NCBI RefSeq assembly: GCF_024218775.1
Contig: NZ_CP100404.1
Span: 186,001 to 250,000 of the forward strand
Reading direction: 5' to 3'
From: Haloarcula marina
Lineage (GTDB): Archaea > Halobacteriota > Halobacteria > Halobacteriales > Haloarculaceae
Length of the DNA: 64,000 bases
Under the pieces are notes generated by a model, which ran no database searches, had not been told where the DNA came from, and was given only the letters and a program-made list of their open reading frames with translations. Position 1 is the stretch's first letter; the number at the start of each line of letters is the position of its first letter. Made by a program: the position numbers and the translations under genes. Shown here piece by piece: positions 43,627 to 50,336 of this stretch.

Positions 43627-44268
43627 TCACACCACGTCGCCCGCTTCCGTGTCCGCGGCCACGTCCGTCTCGAGGTCGATGTGCTGGATGAGTTCGACCA
43701 GCGATTCCAGTTCCGGGAACGTGTAGACGGTCATTCCGAGGTCGTCGTCCTCGACGACGATTTTCGAGTCGATGACGAAGACGAGTTCCGAGTCGGGCCA
43801 CCCGCCCATCTTGTCGACGATGCCGCTCGCGGGGCCGAGGACGAAGTTCGGCGTGCCCATGTCGATGGTCGTATCGAGGACGTTCGCCCACCCGTCGATG
43901 AACCCGCTGGTCATGATGTTCCCGATTTCCTGCATGGCCGACCGCTCCATGTCCGAAAAGCCCGCGCCGTCACCGCCGTCGCCCATCCCGCCCAGCATCG
44001 CCCCCGCCAGCCGTTTGCTGTCGGCGGGGTCGAGCATGAACAGGACGTAGCCGTACGGCGGTTCGGTCAGTTCGACGTAGATGCCGACCTGTCGGTCGGT
44101 GCCGATGTGTGTCTTCACGTCGTCGATGTCGAGAAAGTTGATTTGCGAGGTGTGGACGCGGGCGTCTAATCCGGTCAACTGCCCGAGGTGGTCCGCGACG
44201 GTCCCCGACCCCTCTTTGGCCATCTGGTTGAAGAGGTCGAGTTTCCGCACGTCGACTTGCAGGCCCAT
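43627..44268 (-). CDS. cheC: Chemotaxis phosphatase CheC
   Basis: 213 residues from MGLQVDVRKLDLFNQMAKEGS. A CheC-type domain: the second phosphatase helix SAMQEIGNIMTSGFIDGWANVL (E-x2-N) is intact, the first (MAKEGSGTVADHLGQLTG) is degenerate. It removes phosphate from CheY and, in bacteria, binds CheD. No other che gene is next to it. It lies between the nirA and ammonium-transport genes, and a chemotaxis transducer follows amtB, so nitrogen and taxis genes are interleaved here. Confidence 0.88.
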   Translation of the reverse strand: MGLQVDVRKLDLFNQMAKEGSGTVADHLGQLTGLDARVHTSQINFLDIDDVKTHIGTDRQVGIYVELTEPPYGYVLFMLDPADSKRLAGAMLGGMGDGGDGAGFSDMERSAMQEIGNIMTSGFIDGWANVLDTTIDMGTPNFVLGPASGIVDKMGGWPDSELVFVIDSKIVVEDDDLGMTVYTFPELESLVELIQHIDLETDVAADTEAGDVV

Positions 44269-44859: not shown

Positions 44860-45318
44860 TTACTCCTCCGCGTCGCCGACCGGGAACTGTTCGTGTTCCC
44901 GGACGGTGTTCAACACGATGGAGGTCGACGCCGTCCGAACGTCGGGGTCGGTCAGGATGTCCTTGATACGCGCGTTCATCTCGTTCGTATCGCGGAACTT
45001 TCCGACGGCGATGATGTCGTGGCTCCCCGTCACCTCGTAGACGGCGACCATGTTCTGCTGGTCGCTGAGACGCTCGGTCACGTCCACGAGGCCGCCTCCC
45101 TCGACCGAGAGTTGGAAGACGGCGGTGACGTCGTATCCCAACTCCGCGTAGTCGATGCGGGGCGTGTACTCCTGGATGATTCCGGCCTCGGCCAGTTGGT
45201 CCATCCGCCGGGACACCGTCGTCGCGGCGACGCCGGTTTCGGCGGCGATATCACGGGCGCTCGCCCGGCCATCCCGGAGCAACGCGTTCACGACCTGCTT
45301 GTCTATCTCGTCGACCAT
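44860..45318 (-). CDS. Lrp/AsnC-family transcriptional regulator
   Basis: 152 residues from MVDEIDKQVVNALLRDGRASARDIAAETGVAATTVSRRMDQL, an AsnC-type winged helix, then a RAM ligand domain (VTAVFQLSV..., EVTGSHDIIAVGKFRD). It starts 11 bases after the glnK stop on the same strand, so it is likely the third gene of an amtB-glnK-lrp transcript and would respond to amino acids or nitrogen state. It is the nearest candidate to bind the palindromes found in this region. Inferred. Confidence 0.88.
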   Translation of the reverse strand: MVDEIDKQVVNALLRDGRASARDIAAETGVAATTVSRRMDQLAEAGIIQEYTPRIDYAELGYDVTAVFQLSVEGGGLVDVTERLSDQQNMVAVYEVTGSHDIIAVGKFRDTNEMNARIKDILTDPDVRTASTSIVLNTVREHEQFPVGDAEE

Positions 45319-45329
45319 CGGCGGGCCGC

Positions 45330-45686
45330 TCAGACGGCCTCTGGTCCTCGCTTGCCGGTGCGGACCTGGTAGGCGTCATCGACCGGCAGGACGAATATCT
45401 TGCCGTCGCCCTTCTCGCCGGTGTGGGCGCCTTCCGCGATGGCTTCGACCACGTCGTCGGCGGGGATGTCCGCGACGACTGTCTCGACTTTGACCTTCTG
45501 GTGGAGGTCGACGACGTACTCTTCACCGCGCCACTGGCCCTTCTTCGCGGGCTGTGAGCCACGGCCCGAGACGTTGGTGACTGTCAGCGAGGGCGCGCCG
45601 ACTTCCGCCAGCGCCTGCTTCACGTCTCCGAGTTTATCTGGGCGAACCATTGCCACGACCATCTTGATGTCAGTGTCTTCAGTCAT
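45330..45686 (-). CDS. glnK: PII signalling protein GlnK
   Basis: 118 residues of PII fold. It binds ATP/ADP and 2-oxoglutarate and plugs AmtB. B-loop [11 protein letters not shown] (about residues 87-97) is intact. In the T-loop, WRGEEYVVD stands where bacterial GlnB has the uridylylated Tyr of YRGAEY, so the Tyr51 equivalent is Trp and uridylylation at this site is excluded. It overlaps the amtB end by eight bases. N-terminal extension MTEDTD before the usual first strand. Confidence 0.95.
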
Positions 45687-46965
45687 CTTTGGAACCTCCG
45701 TCAGTACGGATGTTTTCGCTCGTCATACCACCGTCGGCGACAACGCTGTCGCCGAACTCGGGGTAGGTCTCGACGCCGTGTTCGCTGACGTCCAGCCCTT
45801 CCTGTTCGTGTTCGGGGGTGACCCGAGCCTGTCCCATCGCTTTCAGCACGCCCCAGACCGCGGCGGTCGCGATGACGGTCCACGCGCCGATTGCGACCAC
45901 ACCGATGACCTGTGCGACGAAGGCGTTAACGACGGAGTCGACGACGCCGGGTGCGGCGACGAAGGGGTACAGGAGCGTACCCAGCACGCCCGCGCTCCCG
46001 TGAACCGGGAAGACCGCACAGACGTCGTCGATTTTCAGCGTCTTCTCGACGAAGCCGAAGACGAGCGGGAGCTGGATGCCAGCGAGGCCGCCGACCACGA
46101 ACGCGCCCCACCACGAGGTGGTGTGCGGGATGGCGGTGATGCCGACGAGGCCAGCGAGCAGGCCGTTGGCGACGTACAGCGTGTCGACTTTGCCAGTGCG
46201 CATCCACGCGACGAGACCGGCGCCCATGGCACCGCAGGCCATCGCGATGGTCGTCGTCATGGCGACGCGCCCGAGTTGGTCACCGAGGAAGCCCTCGCCG
46301 ATGATGGCGGAGGTACCGACGTTGAAGCCGTACCAGCCGAATGCGAGGATGAGCGTCCCCAGCACGGCGAAGGTCAGCGAGTGACCGGGGATGACGTTGA
46401 CGCTGCCGTCCTCGTTGTACCGACCCATGCGCGGGCCGAGGACGTAGGCAGCCGTGAGACCGGCGATGCCGCCCATGCCGTGGACGATCATGCCGCCAGC
46501 GAAGTCAGTGAACCCGGCGCCGCCGAAGCTGATGTACGCGCCAGCCCACGTGATACCGGTGACGACCGGGTAGATGACGGCCGCCAGCAGGAACGTGTAG
46601 ATGACGTACGCACGGAGTTTCGCGCGACCGGCCACCGCCCCGGAGACGATGGTCGCGGCGGTCATCGCGAAGACGGCCCCGTAGAGCCAGTCGATCCAGC
46701 CCGTACCGCTCGTCATGAAGGCGGCCGAGAAGCCGCCACCCCCGACGAGCGAGGAGACGCCCGCCCCGATGAGGAAGAACACGGTCACCCCGACGGACCA
46801 CGTCAGGAGGTTCTTCGTCAGTTGGTTCGCGACGTTCTTCGAGCGCACCTGCCCCGCTTCGAGCATCGCGAAGCCAGCGTGCATGAAGAAGATGAGGAAC
46901 GATACGACCAGTACCCAGGTGTAGTTGAGCGCGTCCGCGCTAACTTGGAGTGGTGCTAATACCAT
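45679..46965 (-). CDS. amtB: Ammonium transporter Amt
   Basis: 428 residues, eleven transmembrane segments. The pore histidines are in [13 protein letters not shown] and [14 protein letters not shown]; the signature DFAGGMIVH is complete. A hydrophilic C-terminal tail (about residues 385-428) interacts with GlnK in homologues. First gene of the amtB-glnK-lrp unit. The start lies 27 bases from the edge of a candidate palindrome and a GATAAAG TATA-like sequence (about 47009-47015). Confidence 0.95.
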
Positions 46966-46991
46966 GATTTGTGTTGTGTTGAGTTTCTATC

Positions 46992-47007
46992 GCGGTTGAA
47001 CGTCCAA
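46992..47007 (+). promoter_or_regulatory. Candidate nitrogen-regulon palindrome, amtB promoter
   Basis: GCGGTTGAACGTCCAA, right half perfect, 12 of 16. It lies between the TATA-like GATAAAG and the expected start of amtB transcription, a position that suits a repressor. Confidence 0.45.
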
Positions 47008-47114
47008 CTTTATCGGCGCGAGTGCCAAGTTCGTCAACCCGTTCACGGAGAAATCTCTGGCAACACCAGTACATAAGGATTTGCTTTATGAAATCTCATA
47101 TTGGGGGGAGTAAG

Positions 47115-47130
47115 GCAGACGAACGTCCAA
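47115..47130 (+). promoter_or_regulatory. Candidate nitrogen-regulon palindrome, amtB upstream (middle)
   Basis: GCAGACGAACGTCCAA, right half perfect, 13 of 16 positions. Confidence 0.5.
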
Positions 47131-47201
47131 ATTAGGGTATGATATTATGGATATAAGGTTGTTCTCCGTCCAGAAAGCATGTATGTGTGCGTTAGGATTT
47201 T

Positions 47202-47217
47202 GGACGAACGTCAACCG
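47202..47217 (+). promoter_or_regulatory. Candidate nitrogen-regulon palindrome, best copy
   Basis: TTGGACGAACGTCAAC, 14 of 16 positions of the proposed site. It is 202 bases before the transducer ATG and 237 bases before amtB on the other strand. Confidence 0.5.
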
Positions 47218-47418
47218 GAATTTCGGCCCGAACGGCCGATTCGGGCCGTTTCGGCTTGCGCGCGCCCCGGGTGGCGGTTGTTGCCAACGGCGTCAGTATT
47301 AACACACCCTGTATTTTTGTATAAAATAGAAAATGAGTCGTATACGGACGATTCTGTTGGTTATTCTGGGATATTTATACGTCATTGTGTTAGTAAACAG
47401 CGATAAAAATACACAATC

Positions 47419-49011
47419 ATGAACCGAGAACAACGACAACAGTCGGAGCCAGCGGGCGGCGACCGAACCGTCGCCAACGCACAGGGCGCACTCGACGTGG
47501 TCCAGACGGCCGCCGAAACCGTCGACGGCGAACTCGCCGCCATCGACGACCGGGCCAGCGAACAGGCCGCCGACGCCGCGTGGGTCGTCGACGAGGTGTC
47601 GGCCCTCTCGGCCACCATCGAGGAGATAGCGGCGACGGCTACGGAGGTCAGTGAACAGAGCGACCGCGCGGCCGAACAGGCGAGCGACGGGCGCGCGGCC
47701 GCACAGGACGCGCTGGAGACGATGGACGACGTGCGCGCGGTCAGCCAGGAAGTCGCCGCGGAAGTCGACGCCCTGCGGGACCGCATCGACCGCATCGCCG
47801 ACGCGCTTGCGGGTATCGACCGCATCGCCGACCAGACGAACATGCTGGCACTGAACGCCTCTATCGAGGCCGCGCGGGCCGACACCGACGCCGGTGGGTT
47901 CGCCGTCGTCGCCGACGAGATAAAGCAACTCGCCGAGGAGTCCCAAGAACAGGCCGACGACATCGACGACGCTCTCGGCGCGGTCCGGCAGGCCACCGAC
48001 GACACCGTCGGGGAACTCGAACACGCGACGGAGGAAATCGACGCCGGGGCCGACCAAGTCGCCGACGCCATGGCGAGTCTCGACGCCGTGGCCGACACGG
48101 TCCAAGAGACGGCCGACGGCATCGCCTCCGTGTCGACGGCCACCGACGAACAGGCCAGTACCAGCGAGGCCGTCGCCCACCGGTGTGAGACGGTCGCAGA
48201 GCGGGCGCACGCCATCGAGGACGACCTCGCCTCGATTCGACACGCTCGGGACGAACAGACGGCGATGCTCGGCGAAATCGACGACGTGCTCTCGACGGCC
48301 GACGCCGACCGCCGCGCGAAACTGGCCGACGCGCCGACCCTCGAACTCGGTGTGCCGGGGCTGAACGACCTCTGTGGCGGCGGATTCGTCGTCGGCGGAC
48401 AGGCGGTCATCCGGTACGGCGAGGGCGCGTCGGTCGACGGCTTGCTCGCCCAGTTGACGGCGACCACCGTCGCCGCGGGTCGGGCCGTCTCGCTGACGGC
48501 GACGCCGACGCTCGACCGGTCGACGCTGTCGACCGCCTTCGAAGCCACCGACCTGTCGCTCACCGAGGCACTGGCAGAAGACCGCCTGTTCGTCCTCGAC
48601 ATGTTCGGGACGTGGAGCGACGAGTACAACGTCTTCGACCTCGGGCGGACGACGCTGGGCGCCGTCAACGAGACGACCGTCGCCCGGCGAGACGCGCCCC
48701 TGCTCGTCGTCGGGAACATCGAGGGCGAAATGGAGACGGTCGGCGAACAGGCGGCCCGCGAGGCCCGCTACGAGAACGACGACGGCGTCTTCGACGCCCG
48801 CGATACGGTCCTCAACGTCATCTCCGACACGGCGGTGCCCGAGACGCTGGCGGCGTTCTACGCGGGCGCGGCCGACCAGACCATCGAGACGTGGCAGACC
48901 GACGGCCAACAGTACCTCGAACTCCGCCAGTCTCCCATCGGGACGACCGGCAGTCGCCGCCGCGTCTCCACGACCCCGCGGCCGCCGTTCGTCCGCGTCG
49001 GGGGCCGCTGA
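47419..49011 (+). CDS. Soluble chemotaxis transducer fused to a RecA/KaiC-like domain
   Basis: 530 residues, no membrane segment. Residues about 20-300 form a long coiled coil with the signalling hairpin tip IDRIADQTNMLALNASIEAARAD (about 136-158), as in methyl-accepting transducers. From about 305 to 525 is an HTR-like RecA/KaiC-type domain: LELGVPGLNDLCGGGF, a P-loop replaced by YGEGASVDGLL (no Lys), a Walker-B-like LFVLDMFG and ETLAAFYAGAADQTIETW. It is likely a cytosolic receptor whose C-terminus senses or binds a ligand but does not hydrolyse ATP. The stop overlaps the kinase start. Confidence 0.85.
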   Translation: MNREQRQQSEPAGGDRTVANAQGALDVVQTAAETVDGELAAIDDRASEQAADAAWVVDEVSALSATIEEIAATATEVSEQSDRAAEQASDGRAAAQDALETMDDVRAVSQEVAAEVDALRDRIDRIADALAGIDRIADQTNMLALNASIEAARADTDAGGFAVVADEIKQLAEESQEQADDIDDALGAVRQATDDTVGELEHATEEIDAGADQVADAMASLDAVADTVQETADGIASVSTATDEQASTSEAVAHRCETVAERAHAIEDDLASIRHARDEQTAMLGEIDDVLSTADADRRAKLADAPTLELGVPGLNDLCGGGFVVGGQAVIRYGEGASVDGLLAQLTATTVAAGRAVSLTATPTLDRSTLSTAFEATDLSLTEALAEDRLFVLDMFGTWSDEYNVFDLGRTTLGAVNETTVARRDAPLLVVGNIEGEMETVGEQAAREARYENDDGVFDARDTVLNVISDTAVPETLAAFYAGAADQTIETWQTDGQQYLELRQSPIGTTGSRRRVSTTPRPPFVRVGGR

Positions 49012-50336
49012 TGTTCGGGGTCGACGAGTCGGGACGGGTCACGTTCGTGACCGAGGCGTTCGCGTCGCGCCTCGGGACGACGCGCGAGGCGCTCGCTGGC
49101 CGGTCGCTGACCGACCTCGTGGTCGGTGACGGCGAGGCGGTACAGGCCACACTCGCGGCCGTGGCCGACGCCGACGCCGGGGCGACACGGCGCTGTCGCG
49201 TCTCGTTCGACCCCGAGACGGCCGCACCGGCTACCGTCGAATTCACCGCGACCGACGGCGGGGTCGTCGGCACCCTCTGTCAGCGGACCGCCCCGACAGA
49301 CGAGTTCCATCACCTGTTCGCGCAGAGCCACGACGCCATCGTGGCCTTCGAGATGGTCAACAAAGTCCCCGTCGTGCGCCGGGTCAACGACGCGTTCATC
49401 GAGACGTTCGGCTACGCCGAGGGCGAAATCGTCGGCGAGTCGCTCAACGACTACATCGTTCCTGACGGGCGCGTGAGCGAGGCCACCGACTACGACCAGC
49501 GGACCGCCGCCGGGAAGGTGAACCACGCTATCGTGGCGCGAAAGACCGTCGACGGCCGCCGCGAGTTCCTGTATCGCGGCCTCCCCTACGAGACGGACGC
49601 GGGCCGCCGGTACGGCTTTGCCATCTACACCGACGTGACCGACGACCGCCGCCGCCAGCGGCGGCTCCGCGTCCTCCACCGGGTCCTGCGCCACAACCTC
49701 GGTAACGACCTCTCGGTCGTCTTCGGCATGGCCGAGTACCTCCAGCAGAACGTGACGAGACCGGAACTCCAGACCGCGGCGGTGCGGATACTCGACGCCG
49801 CCGAACGCCTCGACGACGTGAGCGAACAGGCCCGGGAGGTGGAGGCCGCTCTCGATACGGTCACCGAACGGTCCGTCGACGCGGCGGCGCTCGCCTGTTC
49901 GGTCGCCGACGACTATCGCCACCGGACGCCGCTTCAGACGATGGTGCCGGAGACAGCGCCCGTCTCGGGCGGGTTCAATCTCGTGGGCGCGCTGGAGAAC
50001 CTCGTGGAGAACGCCGTCGAACACACGCCCGACGGCACGCCGGTCCGACTCACGGTCGACGCTGGCGAGGAGGACACGCTCATTCGCGTGGCCGACGACG
50101 GCGACGGGATTCCGGCTATCGAACGCGCACCCATCTTCGAGGACGCCGACATCACGACGCTCCAGCACGGAACGGGTCTCGGCCTCTGGTTCGCCCGCTG
50201 GGTCGCGGAGGCGGCGGGCGGTGACCTCCGCTACGACCGAACCGACGGCTGGACCGTCGTCACGCTCCGGTTACCGAGCGCTGAAACCTGCGATTTTAAC
50301 GTTTCCGACCGGTGTCATTCGCCGCCCGGTCGGTAG
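49011..50336 (+). CDS. PAS-domain sensor histidine kinase
   Basis: 441 residues from ATG 49011, overlapping the transducer stop by one base (TGATG). PAS-like segments about 1-90 (FVTEAFASRLGTTREALAG) and 95-220 (RRVNDAFIETFGYAEGEIVGES), then H-box VLHRVLRHNLGNDLSVVFGM (His in RHNLGND), N-box NLVENAVEHTPDG, G1 DDGDGIPA and G2 GTGLGLWFARWVAEA. No receiver or membrane part. Close coupling suggests it works with the transducer; partner response regulator unknown. Convergent with hemB. Confidence 0.9.
   Translation: MFGVDESGRVTFVTEAFASRLGTTREALAGRSLTDLVVGDGEAVQATLAAVADADAGATRRCRVSFDPETAAPATVEFTATDGGVVGTLCQRTAPTDEFHHLFAQSHDAIVAFEMVNKVPVVRRVNDAFIETFGYAEGEIVGESLNDYIVPDGRVSEATDYDQRTAAGKVNHAIVARKTVDGRREFLYRGLPYETDAGRRYGFAIYTDVTDDRRRQRRLRVLHRVLRHNLGNDLSVVFGMAEYLQQNVTRPELQTAAVRILDAAERLDDVSEQAREVEAALDTVTERSVDAAALACSVADDYRHRTPLQTMVPETAPVSGGFNLVGALENLVENAVEHTPDGTPVRLTVDAGEEDTLIRVADDGDGIPAIERAPIFEDADITTLQHGTGLGLWFARWVAEAAGGDLRYDRTDGWTVVTLRLPSAETCDFNVSDRCHSPPGR

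Follow-up and report, generated by a model that had tools for sequence, protein, structure and literature searches.

What might a soluble chemotaxis transducer ending in a RecA-like domain be reading, and through which partners would it signal, when its gene runs directly into that of a histidine kinase and starts back to back with an ammonium transporter gene? We addressed this question at a locus of Haloarcula marina, within a stretch of 64,000 nucleotides (hereafter the window) that corresponds to contig positions 186001-250000 of a 3.74 Mb genome. The transducer is encoded on the forward strand at 47419..49011, and its 530-aa product was defined by reading of the open reading frame, a PF00015 match, a full-length model and its homologues. 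The MCP signalling domain (residues 80-260; 47656..48198, forward strand) matched PF00015 with an E value of 2.3e-34 and 119.2 bits, above the curated cut-off of 34.6, and its tip, at about residues 130-185, is conserved across the alignment of named homologues. Two long helices (12-153 and 159-303) make up an antiparallel coiled-coil hairpin in the full-length model, for which the mean pLDDT reached no more than 78.8; the second helix continues straight into the C-terminal domain, and no membrane segment was seen in that model. The coordinates given in the original prediction, together with its description of a transducer coiled coil with an intact signalling tip, were thus borne out by the domain match, the conserved tip and the two-helix model. 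A search of the PDB with the whole transducer returned matches mostly to the coiled coil and was uninformative.

The C-terminal part, about 225 aa long (about residues 305-530; 48331..49008, forward strand), adopts a predicted RecA/KaiC fold. An AF2 model of residues 293-530 reached a pLDDT of 92.9 and a pTM of 0.90; its top Foldseek match was KaiC 5n8y (E 3.4e-11), and VIA-align comparisons gave a Z score of 20.6 against 2dr3 (210 residues aligned, rmsd 3.0) and of 20.1 against the second domain of KaiC 8zn5. These fold matches, to KaiC and to archaeal KaiC-like ATPases, span nearly the entire domain model, and a profile built from 19 homologues recovered KaiC 8zn7 with an E value of 1.1e-6. 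An over-reading of the RecA fold was rejected in view of the confident model and of the Foldseek and VIA-align matches. Domain families were less informative: no Pfam match for the domain was obtained at E values up to 10, a result that would extend to HTR-like / DUF7504, a RecA-type domain of haloarchaea, if its model is in the library. The Pfam KaiC model PF06745 left the window protein unmatched and reached 1 of the 19 members at an E value of 0.27, and the MEDS model (PF14417) matched 2 of the 19 (best E 1.4e-4), the window protein again being unmatched.

The catalytic residues are missing from this domain. The stretch equivalent to the P-loop (residues 331-341; 48409..48441, forward strand), located by alignment to the Walker A motifs of double-KaiC proteins (65 rows, L061 and L111 being left out), contains neither a lysine nor a GK[ST] sequence, and the Walker A motif GxxxxGK[ST] was found in 0 of 67 fused-protein rows, among which several genomes are present twice. 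Inspected by eye, the aligned place in the transducer likewise lacks the Walker B aspartate that the double-KaiC proteins have in their first half. The domain search and structure prediction that had been proposed for the C-terminal half revealed a RecA/KaiC fold rather than its absence, and the predicted lack of the P-loop lysine was upheld. A KaiC fold without catalytic residues, fused to a signalling module, corresponds to the definition of iKaiC given in the accessible part of PMC5847659.

Where such a domain may have come from is suggested by its homologues. Genome searches separated these into two classes, fused transducers and double-KaiC proteins, which in the class-wide search scored at least 250 bits and at most 161 bits, respectively. 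In sequence, the nearest relative of the domain is the second half of the haloarchaeal double-KaiC proteins (458-517 aa), at about 30% identity and with homology over the full length, and several of them have the same W..NV(F/Y) stretch as the transducer domain. These proteins differ from the transducer in having an intact-looking KaiC ATPase as their first half, in lacking an MCP part, and in a presence that is not tied to CheA. Exactly one Walker A motif, located in the first half, was found in 25 of 26 double-KaiC proteins, the start of the sole exception (L080) having been called too late. Their second half has none; as the motif is also missing from every fused protein, the domain was most likely ATPase-dead before it joined the transducer, to judge from these alignments. 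The same kinship favours a reading in which the dead domain is a scaffold or regulator of a KaiC-type ATPase: it would bind no small ligand itself, but enter a ring with an active KaiC protein and so couple the taxis array to signalling by KaiC. Inactivated KaiC domains have indeed been proposed as parts of signalling hubs (PMC5847659, consulted in part; source paper Makarova 2017). Against it, the host genome holds no second significant domain match, the next one having an E value of 0.4, and so lacks a close double-KaiC partner for such a ring; we judge this reading improbable.

At E values up to 0.001, the domain was matched in 56 of the 146 genomes of the window's family, in a search with 98 matches beyond the first 60 places, of which the weaker ones were fetched in part. 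The fused gene itself, assigned by identity class and locus reading, is present in 33 of the 146, one of them with an in-frame stop. A class-wide sample gave matches at E values up to 1e-10 in 81 of 391 genomes, both homologue classes taken together. Named carriers belong to Haloarcula, Halosimplex, Halorientalis, Halorhabdus, Halovenus, Salinibaculum, Haloferax, Halobellus, Halonotius, Halorubrum and Halohasta. Within the Haloferax genus, 3 of 15 genomes searched carry the domain and in the other 12 it was not found; the search was likewise negative for 11 of the 13 genomes belonging to the genus of G178. The 15 matches listed from 3590 plasmid records were mostly to other transducers, namely MCP and globin-coupled sensors, and included one 'ATPase domain-containing protein' at 30% identity.

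Some individual loci deserve separate mention. Two genomes of another family, G178 and G201 (L185 and L186), encode a KaiC domain 63-65% identical to that of the window, that of Halosimplex being only 50% identical, and a kinase 41-42% identical, located upstream and in the opposite direction; judged from these identities, horizontal transfer of their transducer is likely. The Halovenus transducer gene (L061 / L111) contains one in-frame TAG, which may reflect a damaged gene or a sequencing error. Further, two loci of G012 contig C1, L062 and L063, lie near both of its ends as if one locus were repeated on a circle overlapping itself by about 52 kb, and the coordinates indicate that they are probably one gene on a redundant contig. 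Gene calls in the fetched loci were made with a codon-score caller, and start positions may be off.

If the hairpin is functional, its expected partner would be the chemotaxis kinase. In the host genome we counted 11 transducers; it also encodes a CheA-type protein that includes a CheW domain, and CheW was matched in two further places. Among the 146 family genomes, CheA is present in 33 of 33 with the fused transducer vs 65 of 113 without it, counts that include some incomplete genomes (Fisher p 3e-7, with related genomes treated as independent); only 2 of the 98 CheA matches in the family, those of G039 and G040, fall under the curated cut-off, and both are in non-carriers. Carriers of double-KaiC proteins, used as a control, displayed no such link, with CheA in 25 of 35 vs 73 of 111 other genomes (p 0.68), and CheA was also found in 18 of 18 carriers tested outside the family. 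Signalling of the transducer to CheA, as originally predicted, is supported by this co-occurrence, according to which the fused transducer very probably feeds CheA. The coupling may be conditional, given that the cytosolic transducers Htr11, Htr13 and Htr15 of Hbt. salinarum co-purified with CheW2 more than with CheW1, and not with CheA, according to the accessible part of PMC3579733; by analogy, a soluble transducer may engage CheA in dependence on conditions. KaiC homologues already touch archaeal motility, since mutants of CirA and CirD in H. volcanii were altered in motility and ArlH is itself a KaiC homologue (PMC13286277, consulted in part).

A second potential output is encoded immediately downstream. 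The kinase gene (49011..50336, forward strand) specifies a cytosolic PAS histidine kinase of 441 aa, identified by reading of the open reading frame and by Pfam matches to HATPase_c (7.9e-18), PAS (1.4e-13) and, weakly and under its cut-off, HisKA (0.0044). By eye, its H, N and G boxes are intact, and the H-box reads RHN in 12 of the 14 aligned rows and RHD in the other 2. The TGA of the transducer and the ATG of the kinase share one base (TGATG), so that the stop-start overlap described in the original prediction was confirmed. Across 34 family loci (33 fetched plus the window, L062 and L063 probably being one gene), the kinase lies directly downstream in 29, overlapping in 28 of them (by 1 base in 19 and by 4 bases in 9) and separated by a gap in one, that of the degraded Halovenus gene, where it starts 3 bases past the transducer stop. 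A chance neighbourhood was rejected on the strength of the overlap in 28 loci, and with the one degraded case the pairing is regarded as real.

The pairing is not universal, which bears on the possibility that the two genes are independent, the kinase merely lying downstream of an ordinary orphan receptor. The kinase is not directly downstream in 5 of the 34 family loci (L054, L059, L062, L063 and L064), in one of which, L054, it is convergent and faces the transducer; outside the family only 3 of the 12 loci have it immediately after the transducer, and the loci of Halonotius, Halorubrum and Halohasta have a transducer with no downstream kinase. The transducer thus does not need the kinase everywhere. 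Nor does the kinase need the transducer, as it outlives it in three genomes: in G012 (L166) and G020 (L167) the amt-linked transducer is reduced to a small in-frame remnant and the kinase is intact, and in G092 a kinase is present with no recognisable transducer. The break points of the two remnants differ, indicating separate deletions. These cases favour independence, but both remnants retain the TGATG overlap, and in Halorientalis, Halorhabdus and Haloferax the overlapping pair is kept despite the loss of amt and hemB as adjoining genes. On balance, we find it rather unlikely that transducer and kinase act independently.

The remaining question is whether the neighbourhood reveals the signal. 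Divergent from the transducer lie an ammonium transporter gene, amt (45679..46965, reverse strand; PF00909, E 8.6e-93), and, in the same operon on the same strand, genes for a GlnK/P-II protein (45330..45686; PF00543) and an Lrp-type regulator (44860..45318; NF041396, over its cut-off), followed by a gene for CheC (43627..44268, reverse strand; PF04509). We therefore weighed, from this arrangement, an ammonium or nitrogen taxis receptor, whose KaiC-like domain would read GlnK, Amt or a nitrogen-linked metabolite and through which the pair would steer both cells and gene expression. In its favour, amt (with glnK) is divergent and adjoins the transducer, or is one gene away, in 24 of the 34 loci, in five genera of one family, glnK lying between amt and the transducer at the Halovenus locus. 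In a tree of 41 rows, built without L061 and L063 and having open forks and long branches, the amt-linked genes do not form one clade and 4 changes are needed, at least 3 of them forced; the linkage is thus either old with losses or was gained several times. The remnants of lost transducers in G012 and G020 also adjoin amt, and in a Tc-Br11 MAG and in Halovenus the adjacency to amt is kept and that to hemB is gone.

Other observations weaken the nitrogen reading. In many of the same amt-linked genomes the other flank of the pair retains hemB, for which no role in nitrogen is known, and five members of the genus have amt next to hemB with no recognised gene in between. As amt-hemB synteny exists without the pair, adjacency to amt is partly inherited gene order: the amt-hemB region is otherwise stable, and the pair is a cassette either present there or lost. 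Moreover, amt does not adjoin the transducer in Halorientalis (L050, L053, L055 and L059), in Halorhabdus (L056 and L058), or at L054 and L062-L064, an amt neighbour was found at 0 of 12 loci examined outside the family, and the second amt of the host genome has a GlnK gene and no recognisable transducer nearby. The DNA between the divergent starts provides a further argument. In this 453-bp gap (46966..47418, no strand assigned), the roughly 330 bp upstream of amt (window 46966-47300) show strong conservation throughout the genus, whether or not the transducer is present, and the conservation ends before the transducer side. TTGGACG-N2-CGTCCAA-like dyads gave 30 matches in 23 gaps vs a mean of 0.4 in base shuffles, and two of the sites stand at fixed distances, in loci lacking the cassette too. 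Since the same DNA occurs in transducer-less genomes, the conserved stretch belongs to amt and is probably its control region.

A control region shared by amt and the transducer was rejected, as the dyads and the 330 bp recur in amt loci with no transducer; contrary to the original prediction, the gap is shared only in the sense that it lies between both starts. CheC, originally placed in the pathway, was also discarded as a specific partner: it stands beside lrp-glnK-amt in most genus members examined, including members without the transducer. In many Haloarcula genomes (L032-L045), CheC is flanked by ABC-type substrate-binding lipoproteins of about 450 aa, one or two in number, which as judged by eye may be of the urea or amide type. 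The proposed nitrogen sensing is thus weakly supported, by amt lying near the pair in 24 of the 34 family loci, and this does not extend to the 12 loci examined outside the family; likewise, the suggested survey of amtB, transducer and kinase neighbourhoods upheld the pairing with the kinase and found the link to amt weak, with pairs remote from amt in Halorientalis, Halorhabdus and Haloferax, which goes part of the way towards the refuting observation named in the original prediction. The kinase is a firmer partner than amt: it lies directly downstream at 29 of the 34 loci and persists in the lineages that have the pair elsewhere than beside amt. The amt position, read across these genomes, appears old but not obligatory. 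Nitrogen sensing by the pair is possible, as suggested by the amt neighbourhood in one family, yet we consider an ammonium or nitrogen taxis receptor unlikely.

Comparison with described systems indicates that the parts are of known kinds. Car/Htr11, Htr13, Htr15 and HemAT of Hbt. salinarum are likewise cytosolic transducers, which have an MCP signalling domain and lack membrane segments; Car is a cytoplasmic arginine receptor and HemAT an oxygen sensor (PMC3579733, consulted in part). The window transducer differs from them in that its presumed sensor is a C-terminal inactivated KaiC-fold domain. The iKaiC proteins and MEDS (PF14417) present the same divergent, possibly inactivated KaiC fold fused to signalling modules, although the accessible part of PMC5847659 lists iKaiC with REC and HalOD1, and MCPsignal with REC-PAS-PAS-HAMP, and not iKaiC with MCP. 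As in the cyanobacterial KaiC-SasA system, a KaiC domain stands beside a sensor histidine kinase, and 6x61 (KaiC CI with the SasA N-domain) was among the fold matches of the C-terminal domain; however, SasA binds through a thioredoxin-like domain, according to the title of 6x61, whereas the window kinase has PAS domains and the KaiC domain here is dead. The ammonium sensor kinase of Kuenenia shares the association of Amt with a histidine kinase, but there it is one fused protein, and here the genes are separate and divergent and their link is unproven (PMC5764959, consulted in part). No published fusion of a KaiC-type domain to a transducer was found in a literature search that did not extend to the main KaiC survey. 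A soluble haloarchaeal transducer with an inactivated KaiC domain and an overlapping kinase gene is, within that search, a new combination.

Taking together the predicted fold, the loss of catalytic residues, the family, the gene overlap and the co-occurrence with CheA, we favour, as reasonably probable, a cytosolic chemoreceptor of the CheA pathway with an ATPase-dead KaiC sensor or docking domain and a coupled PAS kinase; the sensor role of the KaiC-like domain, its physical contact with the kinase and the direction of the signal are what we infer. In this chemoreceptor, a dead KaiC domain derived from the second half of double-KaiC proteins would now serve as a sensor or docking module at the end of the coiled coil opposite the tip, and its state would travel down the hairpin to CheW/CheA and onward to the archaellum. 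The PAS kinase, probably translated from the same message via the stop-start overlap, most likely works with the transducer and may read the same KaiC-like domain for a second, non-motility output; alternatively, it may alter or modify the transducer. Nitrogen or energy status as the signal would be a guess from the amt neighbourhood in one family. In a bolder version, to which we give very little credence, a transducer trimer-of-dimers would bring its six dead KaiC domains together into a KaiC-like ring sensing the nitrogen or energy state; this ring would act on two kinases at once, on CheA by way of the hairpin and on the PAS kinase by direct contact. If true, taxis and gene regulation would branch at that ring, as in a KaiC-SasA system built on a chemoreceptor.

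Our results define a family of receptors through which the KaiC signalling network of archaea appears to be wired directly into a bacterial-type chemotaxis array. Since genomes of the Haloferax genus carry the domain, the family should be testable in culturable relatives, and it could reveal the input to which a dead KaiC domain responds and whether CheA and an ordinary histidine kinase can be served by a single sensor.
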